Source: Geminisphaera colitermitum TAV2
Lineage (GTDB): Bacteria > Verrucomicrobiota > Verrucomicrobiia > Opitutales > Opitutaceae
NCBI RefSeq assembly: GCF_000171235.2
Contig: NZ_ABEA03000099.1
Location: 62,001 to 126,000, forward strand
DNA length: 64,000 bases
Reading direction: 5' to 3'
In this document: piece after piece, positions 3,294 to 28,100 of the stretch
How the letters are laid out: every line of letters starts with the position of its first letter
How positions within the stretch are numbered: position 1 is the first letter of the stretch
Translations under genes and position numbers: made by a program
The notes under the pieces: model-generated
Told to the model about the DNA's origin: nothing
What the model saw: the letters and a program-made list of their open reading frames with translations, nothing else
Database searches by the model: none

Positions 3294-3707
3294 TCAGACT
3301 GCCTTAAGCATGGAGACTTGCTGCACCGTCTCAGGTGGCGCCAGTTGATAGCGCACCGCGTTTGTTTTGCCCGATACGGTTACAAGATTGCTGGCGCGGA
3401 GACGAACCAGTTTGCGAGTAACTGTCGCGGAGGACATTTCCAGCGCCACCTGAAAATCCTTGGGGGACGCCGTGCCAACCACAGAAAGGTAGCGCAGTAT
3501 CCGTTTCTCTGACTCGTCGGAGACGAAGTCGGCGGGATCGAATCCACCTGCTATCTTCTGGCCCGGATTACGTGGAAACCGGGCAGGTTTTTCAAACTCC
3601 TCCGGGTGGAGGTAGCGATAGCGGATGACAGCGGTGACGAGCAGTTCGCCGACCCGGCGGATGCGCTCGTCTTCGGTGAGGTTTCGGTTTCGTTCAAAGG
3701 GACGCAT
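3294..3707 (-). CDS. winged-helix (MarR-like) DNA-binding protein
   Basis: A 137-residue protein with a C-terminal winged-helix domain: KRILRYLSVVGTASPKDF leads into VTRKLVRLRASNLV (recognition helix) and a wing ending in AVRYQLAPP. I chose the ATG at 3707 (MRPFERNRN) rather than an upstream ATG at 3872, because similarity to the decayed paralogue at about 13584-14010 begins at this point (PFxRNxNLT). No catalytic residues are present, so it is presumably a transcriptional regulator. The target is unknown; neighbours are a trehalase (convergent) and the operon at 3968-5600 in the same direction. No good Shine-Dalgarno sequence precedes either start. Confidence 0.65.
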   Translation of the reverse strand: MRPFERNRNLTEDERIRRVGELLVTAVIRYRYLHPEEFEKPARFPRNPGQKIAGGFDPADFVSDESEKRILRYLSVVGTASPKDFQVALEMSSATVTRKLVRLRASNLVTVSGKTNAVRYQLAPPETVQQVSMLKAV

Positions 3708-3967
3708 GGGATTGGAATTTTGTTGGTTGGTGATGAGGTTTAGACAGCCATCCGCATGGTCGGCATGGCTTGAATCACTTCCGAGGCGTCCATGCGCACA
3801 GTTACGGGTATGCGAGAGCACCGCTGACGCTGATACAGGATTTGGCGAATTGAGTTCGACTAAAATCATCAATGATGACTTAACTACGAAAAGTCAAGAT
3901 CAAATGAATCACCACTTCACAGCCCCCCCCCCTCGCGGGGATGGCTCTACGCTGGGAAATTCGAGCC

Positions 3968-5997: not shown

Positions 5998-6001
5998 ATT
6001 A

Positions 6002-7499
6002 TCCTAGATTCCACAGTTGAGTATGGGAGAAGAGGGAGAAGGAGAGAAGAGGAGGTCCAATGCGGCGCAGTTGAACGCAGCCAGAGGATAACGCGTTGGT
6101 AGCTGTGTTTTAGTTGTTGCCACCATGAGCCTTGCGCGGAGATGAGCAGGGATGTTTTTCTGCTGGATTTGACGAGTTTGGCACCGATGATCATGAACCA
6201 GCGACGGGAACCGGAGGCTTCGATGTGCCTGCCGGGTTCAAGCAAGCGGGAAAACAAGCACCATAGGTTGTAAACGAGCAGGAGCAATTGCGCGGCCGGC
6301 GCAGTCACTCGGCTTTTTTTGCACAAAAGCCGTTGAAGCCCCATTGATTTTTGAGTTCGTCGAAGACGTTTTCGGCGTCGCCCCTGTCCCGATACAGGGC
6401 TTGGATTTGCCAGCCGTTGCATTGGGAGGGCCGCAGATTGGTTACGTAAGCGGCCGTTCGTATTTGTGTTCTGTCCAGAAGCGTGCCTGCGCATTGGCCG
6501 GCATGGGGCCTTGCAATTTGCGGGCGAAGACCCCCCGTCGCTCGCAGGTCCACGAGGGCAGGCGCACCCGCGCCTCGGCGACCTGCCAGACCCCCTGTTT
6601 GCCGGGTCCGTGCCAGTCGTCTTCGCGCACTGAGGCCATGGCTCGTTTCACGTTCGCGGTCAGCTTCAGTTTGAACAGGTAAGCAGGCCGTCCCGGGGCC
6701 TGCTCGTGCCAAGCCATCACTGGGTCTTGTCCCAAACCGATGTCGCCACGGTTCAGCCACACCTGGCGACCGTATGTGTTCGCCAGCGCTTCCTGCGCAG
6801 CCTTGCTCCATTGTGTCGAGGTCACCGTATTCCCGCTGCGAAACCGGTAAGCCGCGCATAAGCGTGTTCCGGTCGCCACCGCCACCAGCGGATGGAAGCT
6901 GCACCTGCCGGGCTTGGTCGGATTATAGCCCACTTGCGCTCCCTCTTGGTGGCCATACTTGGTCTGCACCGTCGAATCCCAATCCAGAATGAGCCGTTCG
7001 GGCAGCGCCTTCCACAATCGTTCCTCCGCCGCTCTTACCCAGCCCGCTGATTGCTCCCGATCTATCGATGCAAAAAAACGCCGGATCGTGTCGTCACTGA
7101 CCACCGCCTTCATCCCGAATAACTCGCACAGACTCGGGTCTTCCCTCAAGCGCTGCACATGCACAAAACGCCTCCCGTCGGTCACCGCCGTCAAAAAAAA
7201 ACTCTACAACACGTCATGCACCGATGCCGCGTTCGGACTTGTCCTCTTCACCGGACAAGTCTCCACCAGCTTCTCCATTATCCCTATGTGACGGCAAAAC
7301 GCCGCCCACGGCACCAGTCCCCCATACGGCGTGAGTGCCTCCTCACTCACCCTCAACGACACCTTCCCTCCAGGAGTTTCGAACTCCAACTCGTCTTCAC
7401 CCAATAGGTGAAATTCTGATCCTATGACTTTTCTCATTTATCTCTCATCATACCAAAAACTTCAACCTCCAGACAAATCTACCAACTGCGGAATCTAGG
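6002..7499 (-). mobile_element. IS1380-family insertion sequence, decayed
   Basis: Terminal inverted repeats are TCCTAGATTCCACAGTTG at 6002-6019 and its near-complement (CAACTGCGGAATCTAGG) at 7483-7499. A 4-base ATTA flanks both sides (5998-6001 and 7500-7503), the duplication length expected for IS1380. The transposase inside carries an amber stop and at least two frameshifts, so the copy is not autonomous. An IS5-like element begins directly after the right-hand ATTA. Confidence 0.8.
6040..7437 (-). pseudogene. IS1380-family transposase, broken by a stop and frameshifts
   Basis: The start at 7437 gives an intact N-terminus up to an in-frame TAG at 7204-7206. The same frame then resumes (LTAVTDGRRFVHVQRL) and carries the DDE-type core with DWDSTVQTKYGHQEGAQVGYNP, the family hallmark. 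A frameshift near 6445 moves the homology to another frame (YVTNLRPSQ, then DAENVFDELKNQWGFNGF), and a second near 6310, in an oligo-T stretch, moves it again (AAQLLLLVYNLWCLFSRLLEPG). The C-terminal end is uncertain. Decay at homopolymers could in part be assembly error, but the amber codon is not at one. Confidence 0.8.
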
Positions 7500-7503
7500 A
7501 TTA

Positions 7504-8965
7504 GTCGGTGCTGAGGAAGGGCGGTATTAAGCGAGTTTGAAGCATGGCGAGGTGCGCAAGGCGGGAAAAAGCGCGAGCAGAAGGCGGGAAAAAAAGGCCA
7601 AAAGGAAAGCCAGGAGCTTTCCGAAGTTCATCGCGGCGGCGCTGAGGATGGCATTGACCTTGTCTCCGATCAATCCGCGTAACTTGTTGCGCTCCATACG
7701 ATGTTCATTCTTGAGATGTCCGATTGTCGGCTCAATGGCGGCACGGCGTTTCATCCAGCGCCAGACTCGTTTGGGGATTTTCCCTCGCCTGCGTTTGTCC
7801 ACGATCACCTCCACCGGCCCCTCATAATTGTGCCCTCGATAACCCATGTCCACGTGCGCCGTTTTCGGCCCCTGTTTTTCAATATAGAGCCGTTTTACCT
7901 GCTCCATTTGCGCTTCAAGCGTGTGCCCATCATACGGATTGTCTGGCATACATAACGCTCCCAACAGCCAGCCTCCCTTGCTCGTCGATGCCACACTTAC
8001 CTTCTGTCCAAATTCATATTTCTTTCCCGATTTCCCTTTCGATATGCATTTCACCTTTGGCTCATGCACACTATACACTTTGTTTTTGTCTGCTGTCTTT
8101 TGTTTGTAAATTTGCTTGCTCGTCTCCAGCAACCCTTGCAATGCCGCCACAGGCTTTTGTCTCTCTATCTCTCGTATCACACGGCCCAGATTCGTCCTCA
8201 GTTTCCTCACACATGCCTTCGTTCTCTTCATCTTTCGGCTATGCATATAGCGCCCGGCCATCATCAATAATCCCCTCCCTACCCGTTCATAACTCTGCTT
8301 CACTTTCAGCCCGGCTTTCCGCGCTTCCTTCACCAGCCTCTCCCTCGCCCGATCATACGATCTCGCATCGGTCGGATAACGTATCTCCTTGGTTTGCACC
8401 GTCGTGTCAACGTTGATATGCACCACCTGCACCGGCTTTAACCCCTTCATCCTCACCGCGCTCTCTATCGTCTGCTTGAGCATCTGTTCGGCTCCACTCT
8501 CCCCCAATCTCTTCCTCCACCTCGTCATGCTCGACGAGTCTATCGGCTTCTCATGCTCAAAATACTGCATCCCCGATAAATATTGCCAATATGGATTCTC
8601 CACCCAATGCTCCAGCACCTCTTCGTCGCTCAGATCATATTGATACTTCAAATAATGTAACGATACCATCAACCTCGTCCCCAACCCGGGCTGCCCCAAC
8701 CTCTCATGATACGTCGGCCCCAAATGCTTGTCAAACTCGGCCCAGTTTATATTCCCGGCCAGCTTCACCATCGGATGGTTCATGTTCACCAACATTATTA
8801 ACTCCATCTTGAACATTTCCCTCTGTTTCTCGTGCTTGTTTTCCTTTGGCTTCATCTTTTTCCCAGATTTTCTTTATAAATTGCCCTTTTCTGGGAAAAT
8901 TTCACTCCAGTCTCAAGCGTTAACTTGCTCCTTGATAGGAAATTAAATGGTTCTTCAGCACCGAC
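7504..8965 (-). mobile_element. IS5-like insertion sequence, intact, nested at the end of IS1380
   Basis: The ends are GTCGGTGCTGAGGAA (7504-7518) and the inverted TTCTTCAGCACCGAC (8951-8965), 14 of 15 matching. TAGGATTA is present directly outside both ends (7496-7503 and 8966-8973). This can be read as an 8-base duplication, or as a 4-base GGAT duplication if the ends are taken as TAGTCGG. The left copy includes the last bases of the IS1380 element, so this element inserted after IS1380 and exactly at its border. Confidence 0.85.
7527..8855 (-). CDS. IS5-family DDE transposase
   Basis: A 442-residue transposase, full length and without interruptions. The N-terminal part (LGTRLMVSLHYLKYQYDLSDEEVLEHWVENPYWQYLSG) is the DUF772/InsH-like domain. 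The DDE-type catalytic region follows with VVHINVDTTVQTKEIRYPTD (first Asp), then TAHVDMGYRGHNY (second Asp) and RRRAAIEPTIGHLKNEHRM (catalytic Glu with the YREK-like region). The gene lies inside well-formed terminal repeats, so the element is probably still mobile. Its base composition is more AT-rich than the main chromosome. Confidence 0.9.
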   Translation of the reverse strand: MKPKENKHEKQREMFKMELIMLVNMNHPMVKLAGNINWAEFDKHLGPTYHERLGQPGLGTRLMVSLHYLKYQYDLSDEEVLEHWVENPYWQYLSGMQYFEHEKPIDSSSMTRWRKRLGESGAEQMLKQTIESAVRMKGLKPVQVVHINVDTTVQTKEIRYPTDARSYDRARERLVKEARKAGLKVKQSYERVGRGLLMMAGRYMHSRKMKRTKACVRKLRTNLGRVIREIERQKPVAALQGLLETSKQIYKQKTADKNKVYSVHEPKVKCISKGKSGKKYEFGQKVSVASTSKGGWLLGALCMPDNPYDGHTLEAQMEQVKRLYIEKQGPKTAHVDMGYRGHNYEGPVEVIVDKRRRGKIPKRVWRWMKRRAAIEPTIGHLKNEHRMERNKLRGLIGDKVNAILSAAAMNFGKLLAFLLAFFSRLLLALFPALRTSPCFKLA

Positions 8966-9059
8966 TAGGATTATTAAATACAGTGCCACTATGCCAGCGA
9001 TAGACACGCTTCCAACTGATAGTGAAATCGTCATCGAATCCTGCTGCGCTAGGGATACA

Positions 9060-10172
9060 CTAGCAAGAAAGAGGGCGAATGTGTTGAGAATAACGAAGGG
9101 AAGCCGAAGCGAAAAAACCTCCACAGTCGGCTTTGGCCTGGCATGATTCGCATGCAGGCATATAGATATTTTTCCAGTCCGAGATTGACTTTCGGGCGAA
9201 AGGATGAAGTGAAGGAGGCAGCAGGCAAAGCTGATGATTATAGATAAACACCCGTATGCCAGCATCGAAGAGAATGTTAATTGCATCCTCCAATTCGACT
9301 TGATACTCAACCGGATCGATCCAGAGTCTGTCCAGATTTGTTCGGGCATATCCCATCAGCTCAAGGCCCATGAAGACTACTTGATCAACAAAGGGAAGAT
9401 TGCGGGCAACGAATTGAGCATATTGCGCGAGGCGTGCGTGTGTTTCTCGATGTATTACCATCCGAAGCTCTATGCGGATACCTGTCCTGGCAAGATTGAG
9501 TATCCCGAACAGGGTCTGTTCAAATGCCCCTTTTGCCTGAACGACGAAGTCGTGAACACTGGCAGTATCCGCATATAGAGGGATACCGATCATGAAATCG
9601 GGATGCTTGATGTCGGCAAGACTGCGGGCATATCGTAAATACGAAAATAGCCTGCCATTGGAAAGCATATGCAGTGAGGTTTTTGGGAGATGCTGCTTCA
9701 CGGACCGGATCACCTCCATGAGTTTCTCATGCAAAAGTGTCGGTTCTCCTCCGGTAATACCAAGTTCCGGGGTATCCTTGGACATCCATGGGATCATTTC
9801 AAGAATGTCATCTATCAGGTAAGCATCGTCTATATCGCGGGGTGGCTGCGAGCACATCAGACATCGGCTGTTGCAACGCTCCGTGAAAAACAAAAAATTA
9901 TGTTGGCTCCGTTTTCGATACAAAATTCTGGTTTCACGAGAGATCGGATTGAAGCGTACGATATCACCCTCTTCAAGAAACGCACTTTCGGTAGAAAGAA
10001 TAATTTCGTCACCTGCAGGTATCTGTTGATCGCTTCCAATACACAGATGCATTTTCATCTCACTATGACCTAGATTGCGGATAACAAACAGGCTGTCATT
10101 AACCCGTTGTTCAAGAAGGCCGACAAAGGGTTCTCCGCCAAATCCAAACAACGCACGATCAGCAAGTTTCAT
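9060..10172 (-). CDS. hxsC: His-Xaa-Ser system radical SAM maturase HxsC
   Basis: A 370-residue radical SAM protein. TERCNSRCLMCSQ gives the CX3CX2C iron-sulfur motif at about Cys100/104/107, and LGITGGEPTLL is the SAM-binding GGE motif. The C-terminus ends in a cysteine pair region (CESCQAKADCGG) of the kind that holds an auxiliary cluster or metal. In the named HxsC family this enzyme pairs with HxsB to modify, presumably, the His-Xaa-Ser protein HxsA; the chemistry is unknown. I chose the ATG at 10172 because it overlaps the hxsB stop as ATGA; another ATG lies 9 bases upstream. It is the last hxs gene, and the IS5-like element sits 94 bases downstream. Confidence 0.9.
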   Translation of the reverse strand: MKLADRALFGFGGEPFVGLLEQRVNDSLFVIRNLGHSEMKMHLCIGSDQQIPAGDEIILSTESAFLEEGDIVRFNPISRETRILYRKRSQHNFLFFTERCNSRCLMCSQPPRDIDDAYLIDDILEMIPWMSKDTPELGITGGEPTLLHEKLMEVIRSVKQHLPKTSLHMLSNGRLFSYLRYARSLADIKHPDFMIGIPLYADTASVHDFVVQAKGAFEQTLFGILNLARTGIRIELRMVIHRETHARLAQYAQFVARNLPFVDQVVFMGLELMGYARTNLDRLWIDPVEYQVELEDAINILFDAGIRVFIYNHQLCLLPPSLHPFARKSISDWKNIYMPACESCQAKADCGGFFASASLRYSQHIRPLSC

Positions 10173-11623
10173 TGTGCCCATCCTCTCAATATACGCGCAG
10201 CTGCGGGATCATCCTCAAGCAGTTTAACAAGGTGACGCATAATTCCCATGTTTCGTTGACAAAACGCGCTTGTTGGTTTGTGGCCCACCATATCTCCCTG
10301 TGTTGTGTGATGACGAACAGGATCACTCCCGCACCACAGCTGGAAGGCACAATCGACACATCCCGGCATCCCCTCCGTCATGGTGCGATAAGCAATATCC
10401 AAGATAGGACTCTTTGTGAAAAGGTCATCCCAACTATTCTCGTAAACAGTACCAAGTCGGAAGGTCGTATCTCCCATTTCGGCAAGCATACGTCCTTCAT
10501 CGGATGCATAGACTCCACCGTCGTAATTGTAAACGAGAGCTGCAAGGCCAGTCCCGGTAGGAGACTGCAAGTCAACATATCCGGTTGGATATGAGGTCAG
10601 CATACGCCGCAATAGCAGTGATGCATAGACCTCGCGAACAGGCACACCCTCACCGTTAAGATGAAGAATATAGGCGAGGCCCCGGCGATAAAAATCAAGA
10701 AATCGTTCTGCCTCGTAGCCAATCCGGGCCGCCGAGCGAATGGCGAAGCCATATGGGCTGATATGCCTCAAGAATATCTCCCGGAAGCCTTGTTGAACGT
10801 ATTCATCAATGATGGCTTCAGGCTGTTCCAAGCTGGCGGCTGAACTGGTCATCAATGCTGATACTGAATCCGGTCCAAGTCGTTCACGGCACCGTTTTAT
10901 ACCGGTAATCGTTCGTTCATAAGCGTCCTTTCCTAGTCGTAGTCGATTGCTGTTATGCAGGGAGGCAGGCCCATCCAGAGATGTAGAAATGAACACTTGG
11001 TGGTCTGCAAAATAATCTAGCATCTCATCGGACAAGAAGGAGAGATTGGTTGCGACGACAAAGGCAATTTCACGGTCAATTGCTTTTTCCTCCACACGCG
11101 CAATTATGTGCTTTATTAATGGAAAATTCAGCAAGGATTCACCTCCCTGAAACTCGATCTTCAGAGCCGGTGAGGGGCCTTGGAGCATGATATCAACCGC
11201 CCTGTCTGCAACTTCTTCAGACATATCAAATGCATTGCGATCTTCCGAAACTCGGGAAACTTGGCAATATGCGCATGAATGATCACAGCGTAGTGTGACA
11301 ACGAACATATGCAACGCCGTCAGATCAGGTAGCCGAGAGTATCGGGTACGAAGCTGCGCGGCAAGCAGCTCCATATGTGTGTCAGCCGCCCCTCGACTGA
11401 TCAGATGTCGTGCCTCCAGATCCCGAAGAACCGGGGCATCAGGAGACAGGCGTTTCTCGATCAATGCAACCAGTGTCTCATTCGGGACGACAATATGCTC
11501 GCCAGCTGCGTTGGTTATTACCTGTCGTTGCTCATCCAGCTTCATGAAGCGAAAAGGAAGCAGCGAGTAGGAAGGCGATTGCTCGTAATAGGCCGGTAAC
11601 TGAAATCCGCGCAAGGCTTTCAT
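10169..11623 (-). CDS. hxsB: His-Xaa-Ser system radical SAM maturase HxsB
   Basis: A 484-residue radical SAM/SPASM-like peptide-modifying enzyme. LRCDHSCAYCQVSR contains the CX3CX2C motif at Cys113/117/120, followed by EFQGGESLLNF (SAM-binding GGE). The C-terminal PGCVDCAFQLWCGSDPVRHH and AFCQRN segments match a SPASM or twitch auxiliary-cluster region. The N-terminal SLLPFRFMKLD is characteristic of HxsB. Start and stop both overlap neighbours by ATGA, so production is coupled to the small ORF upstream and to hxsC. Together with HxsC it is expected to act on the HxsA repeat protein; substrate and product are not established. Confidence 0.93.
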   Translation of the reverse strand: MKALRGFQLPAYYEQSPSYSLLPFRFMKLDEQRQVITNAAGEHIVVPNETLVALIEKRLSPDAPVLRDLEARHLISRGAADTHMELLAAQLRTRYSRLPDLTALHMFVVTLRCDHSCAYCQVSRVSEDRNAFDMSEEVADRAVDIMLQGPSPALKIEFQGGESLLNFPLIKHIIARVEEKAIDREIAFVVATNLSFLSDEMLDYFADHQVFISTSLDGPASLHNSNRLRLGKDAYERTITGIKRCRERLGPDSVSALMTSSAASLEQPEAIIDEYVQQGFREIFLRHISPYGFAIRSAARIGYEAERFLDFYRRGLAYILHLNGEGVPVREVYASLLLRRMLTSYPTGYVDLQSPTGTGLAALVYNYDGGVYASDEGRMLAEMGDTTFRLGTVYENSWDDLFTKSPILDIAYRTMTEGMPGCVDCAFQLWCGSDPVRHHTTQGDMVGHKPTSAFCQRNMGIMRHLVKLLEDDPAAARILRGWAQ

Positions 11624-11823
11624 ATATCCTGCTGCTCGTCCATTTGGATTGCGGCCTCAAGCGATAGGCGAAGTGCCGCCACCATGGAGGCGGCAACACG
11701 ATCATTATCGAAAGCTGCTACAGGTAGGCTGGCCTCTTTGAGGCCGGCAGATTCCAGAGCTGCCGGCAAATAAAATGGGGGATCAAAACGTAGGTATTTT
11801 GAGTCGGTCGGGGATAGAGACAT
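11620..11823 (-). CDS. small unknown protein inside the hxs operon
   Basis: A 67-residue protein starting MSLSPTDSKYLRFDPPFYLP and ending AAIQMDEQQDI. It overlaps the end of hxsD by 41 bases and its stop overlaps the hxsB start as ATGA, so it is very likely translated. No signal peptide, membrane segment or cysteine pair is seen; the second half is a predicted helix (DNDRVAASMVAALRLSLEAAIQM). I do not recognise a family. Position suggests an accessory factor for HxsB, for example a substrate-recognition subunit, but that is a guess. Confidence 0.65.
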   Translation of the reverse strand: MSLSPTDSKYLRFDPPFYLPAALESAGLKEASLPVAAFDNDRVAASMVAALRLSLEAAIQMDEQQDI

Positions 11824-12187
11824 AGGCGGGATCCTCCTGTGGGCTAGAGTCTTCCAAATCGGGACGAATAAATGCAACGCGTGAGAGTGCATGAGCCATC
11901 AATAAATCCCGAGTTTTGGCAGTTTCATCTGCTACGATTTTCCTTAACCGTTGATCAATAAGGTTATTAAAAAATTCCCTAATACAGACATCGGTATCAT
12001 CCTCCGGCCTTTTGGTTCGTAGCCGAATCTCCAGCCTGTGCTGATCCACCGTTTGGAGATGCAGGAAGCATTTTCCGGTCAAGGCATAGGCCGCAGCGAG
12101 AACAGTCTCCATGCCATAAACAGTGAGGTCGATGCAAGCCAGTCGATCACGACCTTCAATTGTAATAGGGTCATCTGGAGATGTCAT
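11783..12187 (-). CDS. hxsD: His-Xaa-Ser system protein HxsD
   Basis: A 134-residue cytoplasmic protein fitting the HxsD family, which always accompanies the paired radical SAM enzymes. The family core is visible as the segment REFFNNLIDQRLRKIVADET at about residues 70-89, followed by KTRDLLMAHALS. It has no known catalytic motif and may bind the substrate or hold the two maturases together; this is inference. Its ATG overlaps the hxsA stop (ATGA) and its 3' end overlaps the next small gene by 41 bases. Confidence 0.85.
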   Translation of the reverse strand: MTSPDDPITIEGRDRLACIDLTVYGMETVLAAAYALTGKCFLHLQTVDQHRLEIRLRTKRPEDDTDVCIREFFNNLIDQRLRKIVADETAKTRDLLMAHALSRVAFIRPDLEDSSPQEDPAYVSIPDRLKIPTF

Positions 12188-12963
12188 AGCGGGATAATTC
12201 TAGCTGATTTCTCCCCGCTACTTTTCGTTTCGACAGGAGGGTCATCGGGGAATGCAAGTATTTTCTGGGCTCCACCCAGTTGCTCGATGATGTCTGTGTT
12301 CAGCACAGGCAGAGGAGACTCTCCAGTTGCGATTTTGACCACTGCATGTTGAGGCTTGATTTCTAGCAGACGGATCTTGGTACCAGCGTTGAATTGGACG
12401 ACGCCAATAACATTGCTTCCATCCAGAATATTAAACCGGCTGACTTTTGTCAGTCTGACCTCTTCGGGCCACCGGCTTCGTATTTTTGGGAGTTTTTTCA
12501 GAACTTGGGAGAGGACGGGATCAGTTGTTTCTGTGGAAGGGCCCGGATTCTCCAATTCCACAGTCGGTACCGAGGGGGATGTGCTCGGTGCCACGGGAGT
12601 AGGACTCGCCGGAGCCGGGGGCGGCGGAGGGTTCGGACGCGGTGTAACTGGATAAGTCGGTGTAGAAGGAGTACTATAGCCTCCTCCCCCGGAACCGGAG
12701 TAGTGCGACGAGTGGGAACTATGGGACGAGTGCGAGCGATGCGATGAGTGGGAACGATGGGCCGCCAGTTGCGGGTTACCTGCCCGGGCAGTACCAAAGA
12801 CAAGTTTCCCTGTTTGCTGCTCCTCTGTTCTGGAGAATGTTGGCTTGTCCTGGATTCCGACTACAGGTTCTTCTTGGGAAATAAAAGATTTCCCATCAGT
12901 CGCTGACATTGTTGCCATAAGCGGAAACAGTCGCCGAAGGAGGCGGGCTACGACTCGATTCAT
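12184..12963 (-). CDS. hxsA: His-Xaa-Ser repeat protein HxsA (probable modified substrate)
   Basis: A 259-residue protein, first gene of the operon. Residues 69-89 are seven consecutive His-Xaa-Ser triplets (HRS, HSS, HRS, HSS, HSS, HSS, HYS), followed by a Gly stretch, a Pro/Thr/Ser-rich linker to about residue 140, and a folded C-terminal domain (FNILDGSNVIGVVQFNAGT). The N-terminus is basic then weakly hydrophobic (ARLLRRLFPLMATMSA), possibly a poor signal sequence. In the named HxsABCD system this protein is thought to be the target of HxsB and HxsC. The regular CATC/ACTC-like coding repeat is protein-coding, not a CRISPR. Confidence 0.9.
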   Translation of the reverse strand: MNRVVARLLRRLFPLMATMSATDGKSFISQEEPVVGIQDKPTFSRTEEQQTGKLVFGTARAGNPQLAAHRSHSSHRSHSSHSSHSSHYSGSGGGGYSTPSTPTYPVTPRPNPPPPPAPASPTPVAPSTSPSVPTVELENPGPSTETTDPVLSQVLKKLPKIRSRWPEEVRLTKVSRFNILDGSNVIGVVQFNAGTKIRLLEIKPQHAVVKIATGESPLPVLNTDIIEQLGGAQKILAFPDDPPVETKSSGEKSARIIPL

Positions 12964-13583: not shown

Positions 13584-14010
13584 TCAGTTTCTGGCCGGGT
13601 TCCCGGGCTGCCCCGGCAATATTCGGCGCAAAACGTCCGGGGACGGCAGTTCGTAGCGTATTGCCCGCGTCTTGCCTGAAGCAGTTACGAGATTCGCAGC
13701 GCGAAGGCGTGCCAGCTTCCGGGTCACCGAAATGCGAGAGATTCCGAGCGCCACTTGGAAATCACGCGGAGCCGCCGCACCGATCCGGGAGAGATAGTTC
13801 AGTATCCGTTTTTCGGACTCATCGGAAACGAGATGACCCGAATCGAAGGGCGCAGAGGTTTCGGGCCTTCCGGAACCGCCCCAAGCGTGGGCGATCCGGA
13901 AACTCTTCCGGATGCAGGCGACGGTAACGCATGACGGCGATGGCGAGCAGTTCGCCGATACGCTGGATGCGTAAGGTTCTGGTTTCGATCGAATGGATTT
14001 ACGGGAACCG
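13584..14010 (-). pseudogene. frameshifted paralogue of the 3294-3707 winged-helix regulator
   Basis: The C-terminal frame reads SDESEKRILNYLSRIGAAAPRDFQVALG and then VTRKLARLRAANLVTASGKTRAIRYELPSPD, matching the regulator at 3294-3707 residue for residue in most positions. Upstream, the homology jumps to a second frame (RIQRIGELLAIAVMRYRRLHPEEF) near 13880, and to a third frame (NPFDRNQNLT) near 13975. Two frameshifts in about 400 bases, with no run of a single base at the sites, indicate true decay. The ancestral start would be near 14010, but no start codon survives there. Confidence 0.7.
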
Positions 14011-14918
14011 GGTCGGATGATATTGCGGAATTTCGGGCGGCTGTCGGGACACGACTTTCCAAAAGGCTTCGGATCGTCGGGCACCGATGCGGTTGTTGCC
14101 ACCGTCCAAGCGGACAGTGGAAACCTCTTTCACTGGCTGTCGGACTGCGATCTGGGTAAAGCGTCCCGGATCGTCTATCTAGCATTGACATGGCGAGCCA
14201 AGCAGCTCGTCGGGCAATGCGGTATCTCCGATCGGTTGTCCTGTTTCGGTTTGCCCCGGCACTACAAGCGTTACGTGGAAAGCTCCACGGCACCGATGAC
14301 ATCAATACAGGATCAGGCGAGTCGGATCGTGCAGTCGATCAAAACTTGCATCACTGCTAAGTCAATAAAAAATTGATACGTGTGGTTGTTTTTCGAATAC
14401 AATTTTGATGCGTATGGCGTCATGGAACTTCCCGTTGAGCCAGGAATCCTGGATATTTTATATCGGGAGAAAAAGGCACCTTTACGGCAGCGAAATCTGT
14501 TTCTCGCCTGAAACAACCGGTAATGGGAAATTCATCACATCCGGAACTGAAAGCCTTCCTGAAAAGAATAACCTTGTTGACTCACGAAATGAAGAAATGG
14601 CCGAACGAAACAGAAATTCAGCTATCAAAACCCGTCGAAAACAGAGAAACTCCCCATCCGAAATTCGAAAAGATAGCTGGAAAAAATTCTCTCCGGACAA
14701 AGGCATCCGCCATGAGGTTTAAAACTATTGTGACAAGGACACGCCACCCCTGGCTTTGGCCAGGAGGACGACCACTTGCCGACCGACAGGCGGATGGCTT
14801 TCTGCCGACAGGCAACAGCCTGTTTTTACCGCAAAATTCCGGCCCGGTTTTTCCGGATAATCCATTGCTTTATCCATTTTATCTTAACTACGATTTTGAG
14901 AGATGCCATGCAAAAAGA
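14011..14918. other. no assignable gene
   Basis: About 900 bases without a recognisable gene. A plus-strand frame open from 14523 runs into the traK-like gene at 14919, but its first 130 residues are compositionally poor and show no domain. The DNA from about 14300 to 14720 is AT-rich. Confidence 0.5.
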
Positions 14919-15275
14919 ATGAACTCCGATCTGTCCAGATGGGTGCTGGACTTTGCCAACCGGCTTGAAATCCAGCCGGTTCACCCCAGCCGCCTGCTTC
15001 CCCTTCGCGAGGCAATCCTGGCCTTCCGCGCGAAGAACTACAGTTACGAACGCATCGTCGGTTTTTTGAAGCCGCAGGGCATTATCATCTCCGGCTCATC
15101 CGTCGGTGCCTTTTGCCGCAAACACTGTCCCGCTTCCGAAGCCACCTGCGCAAAAAAATGCCGACAGCGAAAACCATTCGCCTGCCGCACCGGAACCACC
15201 GCCTGCCACCGGCAAGGCTCCGTCGCGCCCGTCCTCATCGAGCAGCCAGCGCGGCCCGAAAATCGCCCGCGATGA
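14919..15275 (+). CDS. small DNA-binding protein, traK-like mobilisation accessory
   Basis: A 118-residue basic protein starting MNSDLSRWVLDFANRL. The region LREAILAFRAKNYSYERIVGFL with GSSVGAFCRKHCP reads as a helix-turn-helix of the kind found in small oriT or mobilisation proteins (compare TraK of IncP-type and ICE systems). Its stop overlaps the start of a deviant-Walker ATPase gene by ATGA, the usual traK-traL arrangement. The frame continues upstream to an ATG at 14523, but that extension shows no domain. The C-terminus is Arg/Lys/Pro-rich. No relaxase is nearby, so the pair looks like a relic. Confidence 0.45.
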   Translation: MNSDLSRWVLDFANRLEIQPVHPSRLLPLREAILAFRAKNYSYERIVGFLKPQGIIISGSSVGAFCRKHCPASEATCAKKCRQRKPFACRTGTTACHRQGSVAPVLIEQPARPENRPR

Positions 15276-15541
15276 CTTCTAACCCGACACTGTCCGCCGG
15301 TCCGGAGTCGTGGCCGTCGAAACGCCTGATCCTCTGCCCGCAGGACAAGGGCGGCATCGGCAAGAGTTTTATTATGACGCTGCTCTACGACTACTTGATC
15401 GACCACGAGGTGACGGTTCGTGCTTTCGACCTGGATCATGCCAACTCGACCCTGCGCCGGTTCGTGGAAATACCTTGTATTAATAATTATTTAGTCGCCT
15501 TTCCCGGATGCCAACCATGGCTCTGCACGGAGGGGAATTAA
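15272..15541 (+). pseudogene. truncated ParA/TraL-like ATPase
   Basis: The 89 residues begin with a typical ParA-superfamily start: RLILCPQDKGGIGKSFIMTLL is the deviant Walker A (KGGIGKS), followed by VRAFDLDHANSTLRRFV, the Walker A-prime-like region. Normal family members run to 200-260 residues, but here similarity stops near 15470 and an unrelated tail leads to a stop at 15541. The 3' part of the gene, with Walker B, has been lost. Confidence 0.65.
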
Positions 15542-19185: not shown

Positions 19186-22100
19186 TCAGTGGGAATTCAG
19201 TGGTGAAGCTGGGACCATCGCAATGGGCACGCCCGCTGTAGTTGATTTTCCTGACACCGCAGGTTTTAGCGATTCACTAGAAGTTCGAGATGTATGTTTG
19301 GTGTCATCATCCGCCGGTGGAGGCGCCTCCGGACCGTAACCGATCATTTCGACCCTGAACAGGGTCGGCAAGGCTTGCGCGGCCGCCGACGGGGCGGACC
19401 GGTTGGCGGCTTCCGTCGCGGCGGCGGCGACCGATCCCGCCGTGTTCGCTGCCGCGGTGATCGCCCCGACGTTCGGGGCCGCCACCACGGGAATGCCGCT
19501 GGCCGTTCCCTGCACCTGGATGTTGTCGGCGTTGATCACCTGGAGCGCGGCGAGGTTGAGGTTGCCTGACACGCGGATGCCCGCGTCGCCGGCGTCGATG
19601 TAGCCAGACGGCGCGATCAGATCGACATCGCTCGGCAGCACATCCGCGCGCGTCTGGAGCACGCCGATGCCGCCGCCCGTCGCCAGGCCGCCGAGATCGA
19701 GGATCGCGGCTCCGGTTTCGGGATTGATCACGTAGCGGGCGGGCGACGCGGCCTGCAGCGTCTTGGAGGCACTGCCGGCCGCGATGTCGCCGACCGTGGA
19801 CCAGATGACCTCGTTGCCGCCCCGGAAGGTGAAGATGCGGGAGGTACCGACCGTCACACTGTCATGGGCGAAGATCGAGATGTTGCCGCCGCGCAGCGTC
19901 ATGAGGCCCTGATCGAGCGGCTGGCGGCCACTGAGATCGAAACCCACCAGCAGCCCTCCTCCCGGCGTCAGCAGGTTGATGTCGCCGCCGCTCTCGGTCT
20001 TGATCTCGCGCGCGGTGAGGGAGATGCTCCCGTTCCAGGCTTCGCCGGGGAACAGCTTGGCGATCGCCTCGTAGCCTGCTTCGTAGTTCCTGCTGCCGTT
20101 CGGCGCGTCCGGATCGTTACGATCGCGCCCCGCGTCGCGCAGGACGAGATAGAAGATGTCGAGCGCGTAGATCTCCTTCTGAGCGTCCGACTTGGCGTTG
20201 AAGGCGTTCCAGATGGCCTCATCGCTGGCGTCCGTCAGGCCGAGCCGCGCGCCGAGCGCCGGCAGATAGCGGTCCGCGTGCGCGCCAGCCGTCGCCGGGT
20301 CGAGGAAGCTGGAGACGAAGGCGGCAACATCGAGATTGCCCGACAGGCCCGCTCCCGACGGCACTCCAAGGCCGGCGGCGGCGATGATGTCGGCGCCGTC
20401 AGTGTCCGGCAGATAAGGGTTGCGGAGATTGCCGATGCTGACGATGCCGCGCGCCAGGCCGTCACGGCTGAACTGCGTCGCAAGAGTCCCATTGGCGGGC
20501 GCGCCGCCCAGGTCGAGGTTGCGGCCGGCCAGCACCTCGAGCGTGCCCGGACCGCCAATCGAGATATCGCCGGGCGCGGGACTGGCGGTGCCCAAAAGTC
20601 CGGGCATTCCAAGGGCAAGCCGCCCGGGCGATCTTTCATTGAATGGCAGGATATCGCGACCGGCGACGACGCGGCTGACATCGTCCGCCCTGAGGTTCTG
20701 AAGGTAGAAGGCGACATCGGTGATGTCGTTGCCGGCGTAGATCCGGGTGGCCTTGGGCGAGAACAGCGTCAGGCCGGAGATGTCGCCGCTCCCGGCATAA
20801 AGATAGACGGGGTCGGGATCGTCGAGGTGCAGCAGGCCGGCGTCATGCAACGCCTGCTGCGTGGCGCCGGAGACCCGTTTCGTCGCGCCGGTCTCGGTGA
20901 ACAATGCGGTGAAGGCCTGCGACGATATCGCCGGACTGATCACGGGCTTGTTGATGGAGTCCAAAGGCAAAGGAGAGGGGGAATAGACCAGCCTCATGGG
21001 CGAGCGGATCCCGGGAACAAGGTTCGGATCCACGTCGGAGAGATTGATCCTGCCGGTCCTGTAAACGTCGCCACTAACTGGGCGGGAAAATTTATGAAGG
21101 CCGTTGATCGATCCCGCGGCAAAGAGGTTGACTGTCCCGTTTGGCGACGGCGCGAGGGTCAGCGTGCCGGCGACACCGATATCACCGGAGTAGGCGGCAA
21201 CCTCCAAGTTCGGCGGCATCAGCCCGATCTGGCCGCGATAAATGTTCTCGATAGACGGACCGGAACCCGTTCCGGCGACGGTGACCCGTGCCGGCCAGAC
21301 GGCAATGGCTCTGCCATTACGAAGCTCGGTCAATCTGAGCCACGGCCGCCGGTGGCTGGTGCTGTTGGTGCTTTGCCAAGCCAGCACGTTCCCAAACCAG
21401 GCGGTGAGCGTGCCTGCTTCCGCCTCCTGGCCTGATTCCAAAATCCCGACCTTGAGCGTCACATCGCCAGTGAGCGAAGACACCGAGACGCTGTTCTCCG
21501 CGTCATAGGTGGAGAAGTAGGACCTGGCCCAGGTGCCGTTCAACACGCCCTGCGGCAACAGGAAGGGGTTGGCGACAGAGCCGAGCAGAACATCGCCATG
21601 TGCGCTCAGGTCGAAGCCGCCCTTGCCGAGGAACAGCGTCGTCGGCAGCCAGTCGATCGGATCCGACGAGTAGTTACCTATCGTCCCCGCATTGGTGGTC
21701 GCGCTGCGCGTCGCGTTGGTCAGAATGCCGCCGCCGGCGCCAAGGCTGCCCCGTCCCCGCTCGACATAGTAAACGCCGGCGTCGATGTTGCGACCGGCGT
21801 TCACCACCAGGTCGCCGCCGCCATATTCGAACAGCGGCTGGTTGGCGGCCAGATCGTCGATTGTTCCGTCGGCGCGGATCGTTCGGTAGGGCATCCAGGC
21901 ATTGGTCGGCGCCACGGCGTCAACGTTCTTCACGTCGCGCCCGGCGGCGAGGGTGAGATTGCCGCCGCCGAGCGTGCCGACGCCTTCAAAGAAATTGCTG
22001 AAATCGACCCACCAGGTGGTCGAGCCCATGTCGCCGAAATAGCCTTGCGTGAACGCGCCGTTCTCGACGCTGCCGCGGCGATAGAGCCAGTTGACCGGCA

Positions 22101-25100
22101 GTTGCTGGGATGAATCGTCAAGCCAGGCGGCCCCCTGGGACCGCAGACGGATGATGTCCTGCCCGGCGGCGACGGTGATGTTGCCGCCGCCGTTGCTGTA
22201 TTGGGGCGTCGTGAAGGGGACGCTGGCGAGCTGGTTCTGGGCCGGATTCCCCCCCGACTGACTCCACCTCCCATCGCTGCCCGGAACCGGCATGTCGAAG
22301 ACGTAGGTGTTTCCCGATGCATCGGCGGCCGGCAAGGCGACGGTCGCGGGCGCGCCGCCGTTGAGCGACAGAACGCCATTCGCCGCCGCGGTGACGGCGC
22401 TGCCCGCCGGCAGCGCTATCGGCGTCCCCGCGGGGAGCGGCACGGTGGCGATGAATTTTGCCGGTATAAATCCGGTGGCCGGGTCGGGGGTGGATATGCT
22501 GCCGCCGGCGGGATCGACAATCCGCAGCGTGCTGCCGGCGGGCAGAAAAGGAAATTCGAGCGAAGCGGTGGACGCTTTCAGCGTGTAAACGCCGGCGGGA
22601 ATGATGAGGGTCGCCGTCCCGGCGCCAATCCTGGTCAGCGCGCCGCCGCTGGTGAGGACGATGTAGTCCCCCCTGCCATTGATATCGCCTCTGAGCAGGG
22701 GCAACGGATCTCCGGCGCTGAAAGGAACAGCGGTGTATGTCTGGTTGGCGGCGCCGATATTCTGCGTCATAAGATAGGCGATCCCCGGGCCGGACGCGGT
22801 CATGGCGCCTGCGGGGAGGTTGTTTTGGACGCCGCCGACGGTGATGCTGTTGCCGCCGATGATAATCTTCGCACCGGGTCCAAAGCCGCTGATCTCGCCG
22901 TCCGATGCCGGCAACCTCACGGTGGCGCCAAGGACCGTCGTGCTGATTTCCGCCTGCAGGGCCCGAACTCCGACAACTTGTGAGATCGTGACGTTCGGGG
23001 GGCTAAAGCCTTCCGGGAAGCTGTAGATCGTGCCTGCGGGCAGTTGCAGATCGTTCGCCCCCCCGTTGTTGATCGAGACGATGCTGTCGATCGTCGCGGT
23101 GATGGTCCCCCCCTCCGTGCCGTTCGGGAAGAGCAGCGGCAGATCGGATCGCATGTTGACGGCGCCGCCCGGAGCGAGGGTCGCGGTCGTGGTGTTGCCG
23201 GGTATGACCCGGCTACCCGCCGTGTAGATCGTGGAAAACTGACTCCGGATCTGCACGTCGCGGCCGGCGGCGATGTCGATGTCGCCCGTCCCGGTGCGGA
23301 TCAACTGGTCGAAGCCCACCTTGAGCGCGGCGGTGGTGGAAATGCTGTTAGGGATTTGGTTGTAACCCGGACCAGACCTGCCGAGCAGGAGCGAGCCGGT
23401 GCTGCCGCCGAGCTGCTCAAGCGGAAGGACCTGCCGGAACTCGGCGCCGCTGAGATCGGCGCCGGCGACGAGACGGTAGGACCAGGATTCGGATCCGGCC
23501 GGCAGCAGGGTGTCCGTGAGCGTGGTGTTGTTCGGGCCCGGCAGGAAGCCGTCGCTCAGCGAGCCCTGGAGGACGAGATCGCCGGACGCGCGCAGCGTCA
23601 GGATGCCCGGCTCGCCCGAGCCGGGGACGGCGGGATCGGCGCCGGGGCCATAGCGCAGGGTGGACAAGTCCCAGACCTGCGTCGCACCAGTCGTGTTACC
23701 CAGCATGAGGTCTCCGCGGCTGACGAGCTCCACGCCCGGGCGCAGATAGAAGGCCGGGCCGGCAAGCCCGGCGTTGGCCGTGCCGGCCAGCAGGCGGCTC
23801 CTGATCGCGGCCGTGTGGTCGGTGAACGCCTGCGCGTTGGCATGGGCATCCGACTGCACAGCCGGCGTGACAACGCCGCCATCGGTCAGATCGAACACCT
23901 GGAAGCCTTCGACGACCACGCTCGAGGGGTTGAGGATCGCGCCGTTGAGCGGTTTGATCGCCAGATCGTCGCCGCCCGCCACGCTGTTGACCAGGGTCGG
24001 GATCGGATTGCCCGCCGCGTCGATGCCGGTGATCTGCGGGGCGCGCAGATGCAGCCTGCCGCCGCGGCCGCCGGCGACCGACAGGTCGATGGCCGAGCCC
24101 GCCTGAAGGTCGATCCAGCCAATTCCAGGCGTCAGAACGCCGGCGATATCCTTGGCCTGTCCGGTCTCGATATCGACGGCGCCGCCCTTGCCGGCGGCGT
24201 CGAGCTTCCTGGCGGCGACGGTCAGCCGGGAGCCGTCGGCGAGCGTGACGCCGTTGTAGCCGTAGAGGCCGATATGGCCGCCGGTCTCGCCGGAGGCGTC
24301 GATGCTGCCGGTCACGGTGATGGCGCCGTCATCGGCCGCGAGCAGGAAGCTCCTTGCCTTCGCCGATCCATCGGCAAGGACATCGCCGGTCCGCACGCGG
24401 ACGGCGCGCGCCGCATCGAAGCCGCCGGCATTGAGCATGGCATTGAGCACGGCAAGCGTCTGCTGGCTGCCGACATCGAGCGCGAACGCGCCGCCGGTGC
24501 CGCCTTGGCCGGCGTGCCCGCGCAGCGTCCCCGCAGCCGTGAAGGTTCCCTTTGCCGCCGTGACCGTAAGGCTGCCGGCGTTGCCGGCTTCCGGCCTGGC
24601 GGCGACATCGACGATGCCCGATGCTTCGAGACGAACCGAGCCCGCATCCGACTTCAGAACCACTTGGCCGCCGCTCGTATAGCGGATCTGATCGTGGAAG
24701 GCTTTTTCGGTGCCGCTGACGTCGAGCGTTCCGCCGACAACGACATCGGAGCCCGCTGCCGTCCCGGTGGCGTGCAGCGTGAGCAAACCGCCCGGCAGCC
24801 GGATGGTGCCATCCACGCCGACGCGCGAGCCGGCCAGCACCAGTTCGGCGCCGAGGCCGCCGATGATGGATGCCGCCGGCTCGCCGGCCGCCGCGCTGAC
24901 GGTCAGCACGCCGTCGGACGTCAGGCCCTGTCTGGCGCCGGCGCTTCCCGTGACCACCGATGCCGCGACGGTGAGGTTGCCCGCCGTTGACAAGCCGCCC
25001 CTGCCGGCCAGCAGCACGCCGCCGGAGGCCTTGAGATCGAGGTCGGCGTAGCCGGTCACGTTGACCGCATTGGTGCCGATCGTGACGGTTTCCGTGTTGA

Positions 25101-28100
25101 AGACGAGCGCGCCGTTCAGGGGGTCGCCGACACCGGCGACAGGCGCGCCATTCGGGCTGTTGTCGATCACGACGTTGCGGGCGTTGAAGATCACGCTGCC
25201 GCCGTTGGTGTTGAAGCCGCGGATTCCGGGCGTGTGCAGCGTCAGGCTTTCGAGCGTGGGCCGCCCGGCCGCATCGACCGTCCCCACCGACCCCGTCCCG
25301 TAGAGATCGATCGAGGAATAGCTGAGCAGCGACAGCCCGCCGATGGTGCTTTGCAGGTCACGGAGCACGGCGCTCGACAGCACGAGGCCGGTGCCCGGCG
25401 GCGCGCCGGCGCCGTCGAACAGGAGGTTGATCTGTCCGCCGCCCAGCGTCAGGGCGGTGGCGGTGAGGCGCGCCGAGGGATCGAAGGTGGTGGCGTCCGT
25501 CGAATCGAGGATGACGCTGGAGCCGGTGATGCGGGCGTTGCTCCCGACCGTCAGGCTGCCGGACGCCAGCGGCGTCACGCCGGAGCGGACGATGCCGGCC
25601 GAGATGTCGCTGCTGACGCGCAGCAGCGCGCCGTTGCCGTCGATCAGCAGCGTTTGCGCCGGGCTGGAGAGCGTGCCGAGCTGCGCGATGGCGGCGCCGT
25701 CGCGCAGCGTCACGCCGCCTTTCGAGGCAAGGATGATCTCCGGCCCGTGGAGGAGGCTCGCCTCGTCGTTGTCGAGCTCGATGCTTGCGGTCGTGACGTT
25801 GACCGTGGTTCCCGCCGCCGTGCTGCCGCGGATACCGCCGATGAGCAGGCTCTCCGCGCCGAACGCGCTGAGGCCGGTGGCGTTGATATAGAGCGTGCCG
25901 GCGGCGGCGCCCGTTCCGCTGTTGTTGATGACGATGTCGCTCGGAGTTCCGATGTCCACCAATCCGCCGAGACCGCCGGACGGCGCACTCATCAGAGTCT
26001 GGCCCTGGATGTTCAAGGACCGGGTCGCGGCCAAGACCAGCTGACCCGCGTCAACCGGCAGGCGCGGCACGGCCGCGTCCCTGGCGAGAGCGCCCTCGCG
26101 CAGGGCCACGTTGGCTGAGTAAGTGTCATACTGTGCACGGGCACGCACGACCGTCTCCGAGGCGACTTCGAACAGGATCGGCAGCGGGGCGCGCCACTGC
26201 GTCAGAGCATTGCCGCGATAGCCCGACACGGTGCTCGATCCGTCAGGCCGCCGGACGCTGACGCTGGCGGCGGCGGATCCTCCAGGCGTGACCAGAAAGG
26301 CTCCGGGCAACAGCGCATAGCGCGCGGGCAACAGGGTGTAGTAGCCGGCGGGAAGGCCGCTGCTCGCCTCAAGCCAGACCCGGTCGCCGATGGAAAGCGC
26401 GCCGTTGCTCCAACCCGCTTGGAACGTCCTCGAACCGGCGGTGTTGGAGCTGGCGATCGAGACCAGCGGTGCGTAGTCGGCTTGATAGCCGGGCAGGATG
26501 GCGAAGCTCGAGGACGAGGCGAGGATGTCCCTGCTGCCACCGAGACCGCCGACCCAGTTGTAGGCCGTGAGATCGCCGCCGCCGCGCAGGTCGATCGTCG
26601 CGCCTTCGCCGATGTCGATGGTCTGCCCCGCGAAGGTGACGGTCTTGGCCGGCCCCCCCTCGGCGGTGATGTCACTGCCGTGGGGATCGATCCAGGCGGT
26701 GCCGTTGAGCATGGTGCCGTAGGGAAGCGTCAGCGCCTCGCCCGTGCGCGGATCGACCGCCGAGACCGAGGTGACGCTGCCCGCTCCAAGGCTCAGGGTC
26801 GTGGTCGTGGCGTAGGTCTGCAGGGCGCCGCCCGCGTTCCGTGGAACCGCGCCGACCTGTGCCGTGGTGCTGCCGACATTGATGTTGCCGAGCGGCGCCC
26901 GCAGCACGCCGTTCTGGTGGATCTCGCTCGCGAAAATGTTGAGGGTGCCGCCGGCCGAAAGCGGCAGCGCGCGGGGGGCTCCGGGATTGATTGTGATCGT
27001 GCCCGGCGTGCCGCCATGATCGAAGGCGGCGATGGTGAACATCGCCACCGTGGTCGGATGGAGCTGCCCCGCCGTCAGCGTGATATCGCCCGCCGCCGTG
27101 AACGTGCCGTAGCCCCGGATGTCGCCGCGGGAGGCGTCCAGATGAACCTGCCCGATGTCTTGCAGCGCCAGATCGCCGACGTCGATCAGCGACGCGGAAA
27201 TGTTGAGCGAGCCCGTGCCGAAACGCGGATCGGCCACGACTCTCTCGATTTGTCCGAAAGCGCCGATGCGGTGCGCCGTCGAGGCGAGCAAGACGGGCTT
27301 GTTCGTGACGGGATCGAGCTCTTGCGGCGCGTAAGGCCATCCGAGCGCGACATAGGGCGCGTCGAGATTGACGGCGCCGTCGGCAGTGATGAGACCGGTC
27401 GTGGCGAGGGTAATGCTGCGGCGGGCGGTCACGGAAACCGATCCCGCGAAACCGACATTGCCGTGCAGCGTCAGTGAATCGAAACCGCCGTCCTCGAATG
27501 TATCGATGGCGAAATGGGCCGCACTGGACGCTACGGCGGCCAAGCTTTGATTGACAATCAGGTTGGGCTCGATCGTGGCACTATACCCGTCCTTTGCCAC
27601 CACAAGACTGCCGCCCATCCCCGAAGGGTCGCCGGCAGCGCCGCGCAACGTCGCGGCAATCGAGAGCAATTCGTCGCCGTCGAAAACGATTAAGCCGCCG
27701 TTGCTATCGACCCGCAACGGTGCGTAGCCGCCGCCAGCCAGCGACGACAGGACGGACGGAACATCGAGCGTGCCGCCCGCCCCGGACACGTCGAGCACGG
27801 CGCCGGCACGGGCATCGATATTGCCGGCCACGGTGATGACGCCTCCATCCAGAACCTTGCCTTGACGAAGACCAAACGCATTGGGAGCGAGAACGGTGGT
27901 TCCGGCCGTCGAAACCACACTGTTCTCGCCGAGAATGACTGCTACTTCGCCAGAGAAATCCCCGCCCCGGTCACCCTTGATCGAAACCGCGCCGCCCGGC
28001 ACGACGATCGATCCCTGGATATCGGCCCGACCACCGTTGGCGTCGATGCTGACCTTGCCGGTTCCGGCAAGCGTCGGATCGAGCCGGATCGATGCGCCCT

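Follow-up and report, generated by a model that had tools for sequence, protein, structure and literature searches.

His-Xaa-Ser (Hxs) systems are represented in NCBIfam by four models, HxsA (TIGR03979), HxsB (TIGR03978), HxsC (TIGR03977) and HxsD (TIGR03976) (Haft and Basu, as cited in PMC9062424), and by the variants HxsA2 (NF038296), HxsA3, HxsA4 and the HxsD-like NF038315. Among described peptide-modifying enzymes, SPASM radical S-adenosylmethionine (SAM) enzymes make crosslinks between residues i and i+2, among them C4(Phe)-Cbeta(Ser), made by MscB, and the C2(His)-Cbeta crosslinks made by HaaB, YhhB and ScaB, with pairs that include His-Ala and His-Arg (PMC11002830). We analysed a stretch of 64,000 nucleotides from Geminisphaera colitermitum TAV2 (contig NZ_ABEA03000099.1; hereafter the window), in which an earlier note had proposed a complete Hxs operon. 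The locus shares with the known systems HxsB, HxsC and HxsD proteins that score above the model cut-offs, an array of HxS triplets and the gene order A-D-B-C seen in several relatives. It differs in that HxsA falls below its cut-off and carries an SH3-like tail in place of PG_binding_1, and in that an extra conserved small gene lies between hxsD and hxsB. The kind of system is thus already known; what is new is a sub-type with a different HxsA tail and a conserved small gene.

The operon lies on the minus strand (12963-9060) in the order hxsA, hxsD, a small open reading frame (ORF), hxsB and hxsC (Table 1). All five reading frames are intact and neighbours overlap head to tail, by 4 nt (hxsA/hxsD), 41 nt (hxsD/small ORF) and 4 nt (small ORF/hxsB), and by a further 4 nt (hxsB/hxsC) if hxsC starts at 10172 rather than at the alternative 10181. 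This gene set, its order and its overlaps had been proposed before, and the coordinates agree. With the NCBIfam models, HxsB scored 648 bits (cut-off 370), HxsC 392 bits (cut-off 268) and HxsD 60.5 bits (cut-off 50). HxsA reached only 56.4 bits against a cut-off of 121.65, with the match limited to residues 65-130, because its C-terminal domain differs and only the repeat region is matched. The proposed Hxs identity is therefore borne out by the models for three of the proteins and not for HxsA. HxsA also shares its HxS repeats with the HxsA2, HxsA3 and HxsA4 variants, but it is below the cut-offs of all three models, and HxsA2 ends after the repeats. Judged by its sequence, the HxsA of the window is an HxS-repeat protein of an Hxs system and no TIGR03979 equivalog.

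Both maturases keep the CX3CX2C radical SAM motif, as the earlier note had stated. In HxsB the motif is formed by C113/C117/C120, with C422/C425/C431/C455 further along. In HxsC it is formed by C103/107/110 counted from ATG 10181 (100/104/107 from ATG 10172), with C319/C344/C347/C353. Each set is invariant in 21 relatives. Since four further cysteines are enough for one fully ligated cluster, this pattern suggests that HxsB and HxsC may each carry one auxiliary iron-sulfur cluster. Set beside the winged-helix RiPP (ribosomally synthesised and post-translationally modified peptide) recognition element of the PqqD-like type, HxsD was modelled with a beta-alpha-beta-beta-alpha fold having a 38-residue helix. 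The nearest folds were RPB11/DCoH-like dimerisation folds with middling scores (Z about 7), and no Foldseek match of the model reached E <= 0.001. On a viral-collection contig (L046, 576-1249, plus strand), tandem HxsD and NF038315 HxsD-like genes stand ahead of hxsB. These two HxsD-type genes, together with the RPB11-like model, hint at a heterodimer.

The HxsA array consists of seven contiguous HxS triplets (residues 69-89), the number given previously. The triplets are coded by mixed His and Ser codons, which indicates that the repeat is kept at the protein level and that there was no recent DNA duplication. In 29 operons the cores run to 5-8 HxS triplets without a break, the middle residue varying; these cores were gathered by that very pattern, and part of their apparent strictness is due to selection. 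From this pattern, the first and third residues of the triplet both seem to matter, with the spacing i, i+2. The HxsA of the window has no cysteine, so that thioethers of the sactipeptide, ranthipeptide and lanthionine types are excluded on this protein. The outer residues are kept while the middle one varies, and SPASM enzymes are known to make i to i+2 crosslinks; a His-Ser ring is therefore our leading guess. By analogy with three-residue cyclophanes, we favour a side-chain crosslink between His(i) and Ser(i+2). HxS has the triceptide-type spacing, with an aromatic residue and its partner at i and i+2. The cyclophane enzymes FxsB/MscB, GrrM/OscB, YhhB and HaaB are likewise SPASM-type maturases acting on aromatic-x-residue triplets, and MscB joins Phe to Cbeta of the Ser at i+2; by profile score, however, HxsB is not closest to them. 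It scores below the cut-offs of four cyclophane families (YhhB 64.9 bits with cut-off 445, AmcB 59/425, GrrM 56/310 and FxsB 38/370). Precursors in three-residue cyclophane systems are short. The HxS triplet offers a concrete and cheap test of one specific chemistry.

The strongest competitor of the crosslink, which we nevertheless consider unlikely, is that the operon is an Hxs operon with another modification: epimerisation, hydroxylation or another single-residue change of His or Ser, for example a formylglycine-like oxidation of Ser. Both NCBIfam and a PDB sequence search align HxsB with anaerobic sulfatase maturases, which oxidise Ser or Cys. HxsA is also a large protein, unlike a typical short RiPP precursor. 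Yet there is no obvious reason why formylglycine or epimer formation should call for a His two positions ahead of every Ser across phyla. Of the candidates named in the earlier note, His/Ser crosslinking is reasonable and can be sharpened to His(i)-Ser(i+2), while epimerisation is less likely.

We also compared the HxsA tails. The C terminus of classical HxsA passes the Pfam model PG_binding_1 in six of seven proteins tested (L010, L022, L024, L026, L030 and L054), while the seventh falls just short (22.0; cut-off 23). The HxsA proteins of the window, L035 and L085 had no Pfam match, PG_binding_1 included. An AlphaFold2 model of the window tail has six strands and, for residues 11-80 of the fragment submitted, predicted local distance difference test (pLDDT) values of 84-91. 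Almost all of its closest solved structures (Foldseek/VIA) were SH3 domains, matched with modest scores; in Foldseek the tail had no match at E <= 0.001. This SH3-like tail is common to HxsA of all four operons found in the host's bacterial family. An alignment search detected tail homologues in 17 of 100 genomes of this family, and among the better matches examined, those outside HxsA mostly follow a signal-like N terminus and precede a thioredoxin-like part. The repeat array would thus have been fused to a family-typical envelope domain. Tail homologues behind likely signal peptides and PG_binding_1 in classical HxsA both support tethering to the envelope. As the array is kept while the tail varies (peptidoglycan (PG)-binding in some, SH3-like here), the array apparently needs to be located in the cell envelope, a placement that, if correct, narrows its function. 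From the N terminus we infer that HxsA may be exported to the envelope; within it, V-A/T-x-L-L-R-R-L is conserved in the four family genomes. In a Sphingobium operon (L031, 5406-5663, plus strand), HxsA starts with MDRRKFLKPF, which is near a twin-arginine translocation (Tat) export motif and would suit modification before export. In another locus (L063), HxsA lies on the strand opposite to hxsB (minus strand; plus-strand coordinates about 3.2-3.5 kb) and has two HxS blocks and yet another tail.

A somewhat less likely alternative again is that the HxS array, whether modified or unmodified, binds metal in the periplasm. The array would act like the bufferins, which sequester copper, with any modification tuning its metal affinity. 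Repeats rich in His, N termini resembling signals and tails that bind the envelope speak for this role, and exported metal-binding RiPPs are a precedent (PMC12452194). Bufferins, which are MNIO-modified, Sec-exported, copper-binding RiPPs, share with HxsA an export-signal-like N terminus and probably modification before acting outside the cytoplasm; they differ in enzyme class and in their Cys-based chemistry. Against this role, metal-handling genes are not consistently beside the operon in relatives, and none was recognised adjacent to it in the window. As it concerns function, this alternative is compatible with crosslink chemistry.

The small ORF between hxsD and hxsB most likely starts at ATG 11823 and not at the longest-frame start 11892, since a perfect AGGAGG stands 9 nt upstream of the former. 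In genome G762 a 67-aa ORF occupies the equivalent place and shares 41 nt with hxsD and 4 nt with hxsB, exactly as in the window. In G932 a 62-aa homologue (tblastn E 1.4e-6) lies between hxsD and hxsB and overlaps both. Ten columns are invariant across the three proteins, including A-A-L-R near the end. A chance ORF was rejected because the gene is conserved in three genera, with the same 41-nt overlap in two and the tblastn match given above; the pairwise score was 53 against 24 +/- 4.5 for shuffles (maximum 52 of 5000). A truncated HxsD was also rejected (hhalign probability 0.3), the second HxsD-like ORF of L046 serving as positive control (E 1.2e-5). That HxsD-like gene occupies the place of the small gene of the window, which is itself not HxsD-like. 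Pfam, NCBIfam, PHROGs and PADLOC contained no match to the small protein, and a plasmid search with it gave none. Outside the host's family, three weak, partial matches were taken as chance. The hxsD/small gene overlap had no unusual RNA fold. The ribosome-binding site of the ORF and its conservation in place, overlaps and sequence argue that it is a real conserved gene of this operon sub-type, novel relative to the libraries and genomes searched. Such a gene is easily overlooked by automatic annotation.

The sequence itself establishes which parts make up the operon and how they are arranged, which cysteines its enzymes keep, that the HxsA tail differs and that the small gene is conserved. 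For these parts we propose the following mechanism. The conserved N terminus of HxsA would dock the precursor to the maturation complex, in which HxsD may be a non-enzymatic, possibly dimeric partner. HxsB would abstract a hydrogen from the Ser beta carbon of each triplet and bond this carbon to the imidazole of the His at the first position of that triplet; as many as seven three-residue rings would then lie in tandem. HxsC may act on the same substrate, perhaps on alternate triplets or at a later step. The modified HxsA would then be exported and held in the envelope by the SH3-like domain, which would take the role of the PG-binding domain in classical HxsA. The small protein could be an accessory of the sub-type; since its frame is linked to hxsD on one side and to hxsB on the other, the simplest role would be that of a partner to the substrate or the complex.

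Our best explanation, taken as a whole, is a complete Hxs RiPP-type maturation system of a rare, family-specific sub-type, with crosslinks, envelope export, an accessory small gene and recent transfer; we give it a probability of roughly 0.45. The more specific joint claim, that the product of the operon is an envelope-anchored protein bearing a rod of tandem His-Ser rings, and that the 67-aa gene encodes an undescribed component of the maturation complex, is doubtful. Several observations weigh against the explanation. Hxs systems are common on mobile elements, yet we found no Hxs product characterised or described in the searchable literature. HxsB scores higher with the profiles of PapB (95 bits) and CcpM (93), maturases of the thioether-forming or a similar kind, than with those of YhhB (65), AmcB (59) and GrrM (56), so that its ancestry does not favour cyclophane chemistry. 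All SH3 matches of the tail had E > 0.05 and Z of at most 6.0, and the hydrophobic stretch in the N terminus of HxsA is weak. Finally, the small gene is present in only three of the four family operons. It is missing in G226 and is hence dispensable in at least one lineage; as the HxsB tree pairs G226 with the window as sisters (support 99/93), loss of the gene there is the simplest reading.

The operon is rare. Among 57 close relatives, only the genome of the window itself had an HxsB match over the cut-off, and strong matches were present in 5 of 388 genomes of a phylum sample. The operon was found in 4 of 252 genomes of the host's family and was absent from the one same-genus genome examined. 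The four family HxsB proteins group in the tree, the fork joining all four being weakly supported (85/0). The operon has a GC content of 50.0%, compared with 61.1% for the remainder of the window, and within this 64-kb comparison third-position GC is 0.44-0.49 in the operon genes against about 0.60-0.86 in the others. The G226 and G762 operons match the GC of their own flanks. These data are best explained by a recent transfer into the host genome, with an AT-richer member of its lineage as donor, and the AT-richness and lateral gain proposed in the earlier note are upheld. That the operon is a functionless passenger of mobile DNA is very improbable: it is AT-rich and patchily present, with insertion sequences and gene debris nearby, but its five frames are intact, its cysteine sets and overlaps are kept and its small gene is conserved. 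Of 72,556 plasmid records, 408 had an Hxs match at E <= 1e-40, 316 of them from Klebsiella. A metal-resistance link was looked for beside a Klebsiella copy and was not seen.

Table 1. Positions of the operon genes, their internal features and the flanking insertion sequences in the window
Feature	Coordinates	Strand	Basis or remarks
hxsA	12184..12963	-	259 aa; signal-like/leader-like N terminus, HxS array, Pro-rich linker, SH3-like tail
Seven His-Xaa-Ser triplets	12697..12759	-	HRS HSS HRS HSS HSS HSS HYS; sequence
SH3-like domain of HxsA	12265..12474 (approximate borders)	-	alignments, AlphaFold2 model, Foldseek/VIA matches, Pfam contrast
hxsD	11783..12187	-	134 aa; TIGR03976
Shine-Dalgarno AGGAGG of small gene	11833..11838	-	sequence; within hxsD coding end
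Small gene	11620..11823	-	67 aa; between hxsD and hxsB; homologues in G762, G932
hxsB, radical SAM maturase	10169..11623	-	484 aa; TIGR03978
hxsC, second radical SAM maturase	9060..10172 (alternative start 10181)	-	TIGR03977
IS5-type insertion sequence	7502..8967	-	transposase 7527-8855; inverted repeats 7502-7518, 8951-8967; 92 bp from hxsC
Second insertion sequence	6001..7501	-	DDE_Tnp_1_4 transposase, frames disrupted; inverted repeats 6001-6019, 7483-7501

The operon had been described as bordered by insertion sequences. This is correct for the hxsC side, where two elements from separate families meet without a gap at 7501/7502. On the hxsA side we saw gene debris, namely a short TonB_C protein, a disrupted helix-turn-helix gene and a ParA-like fragment, and no intact insertion sequence. 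Diverged copies of a helix-turn-helix gene (3294-3872 and 13584-14102, both minus strand) flank the operon and insertion sequences together, the copy at 13.6-14.1 kb being frame-disrupted. The ParA/MipZ-like fragment (15113-15541, plus strand; Pfam E 0.004) has weak matches to hypothetical proteins encoded by three mobilizable plasmids, and is possibly a plasmid remnant. A plasmid search with the ORF 14523-15275 gave no match. A defence system was considered and rejected, as viperin models were matched solely through general radical SAM similarity. Promoter matches were no more frequent than in shuffles, and one tRNA was the sole structured RNA in the window. A single open frame of 4063 codons extends over 19186-31377 on the minus strand.

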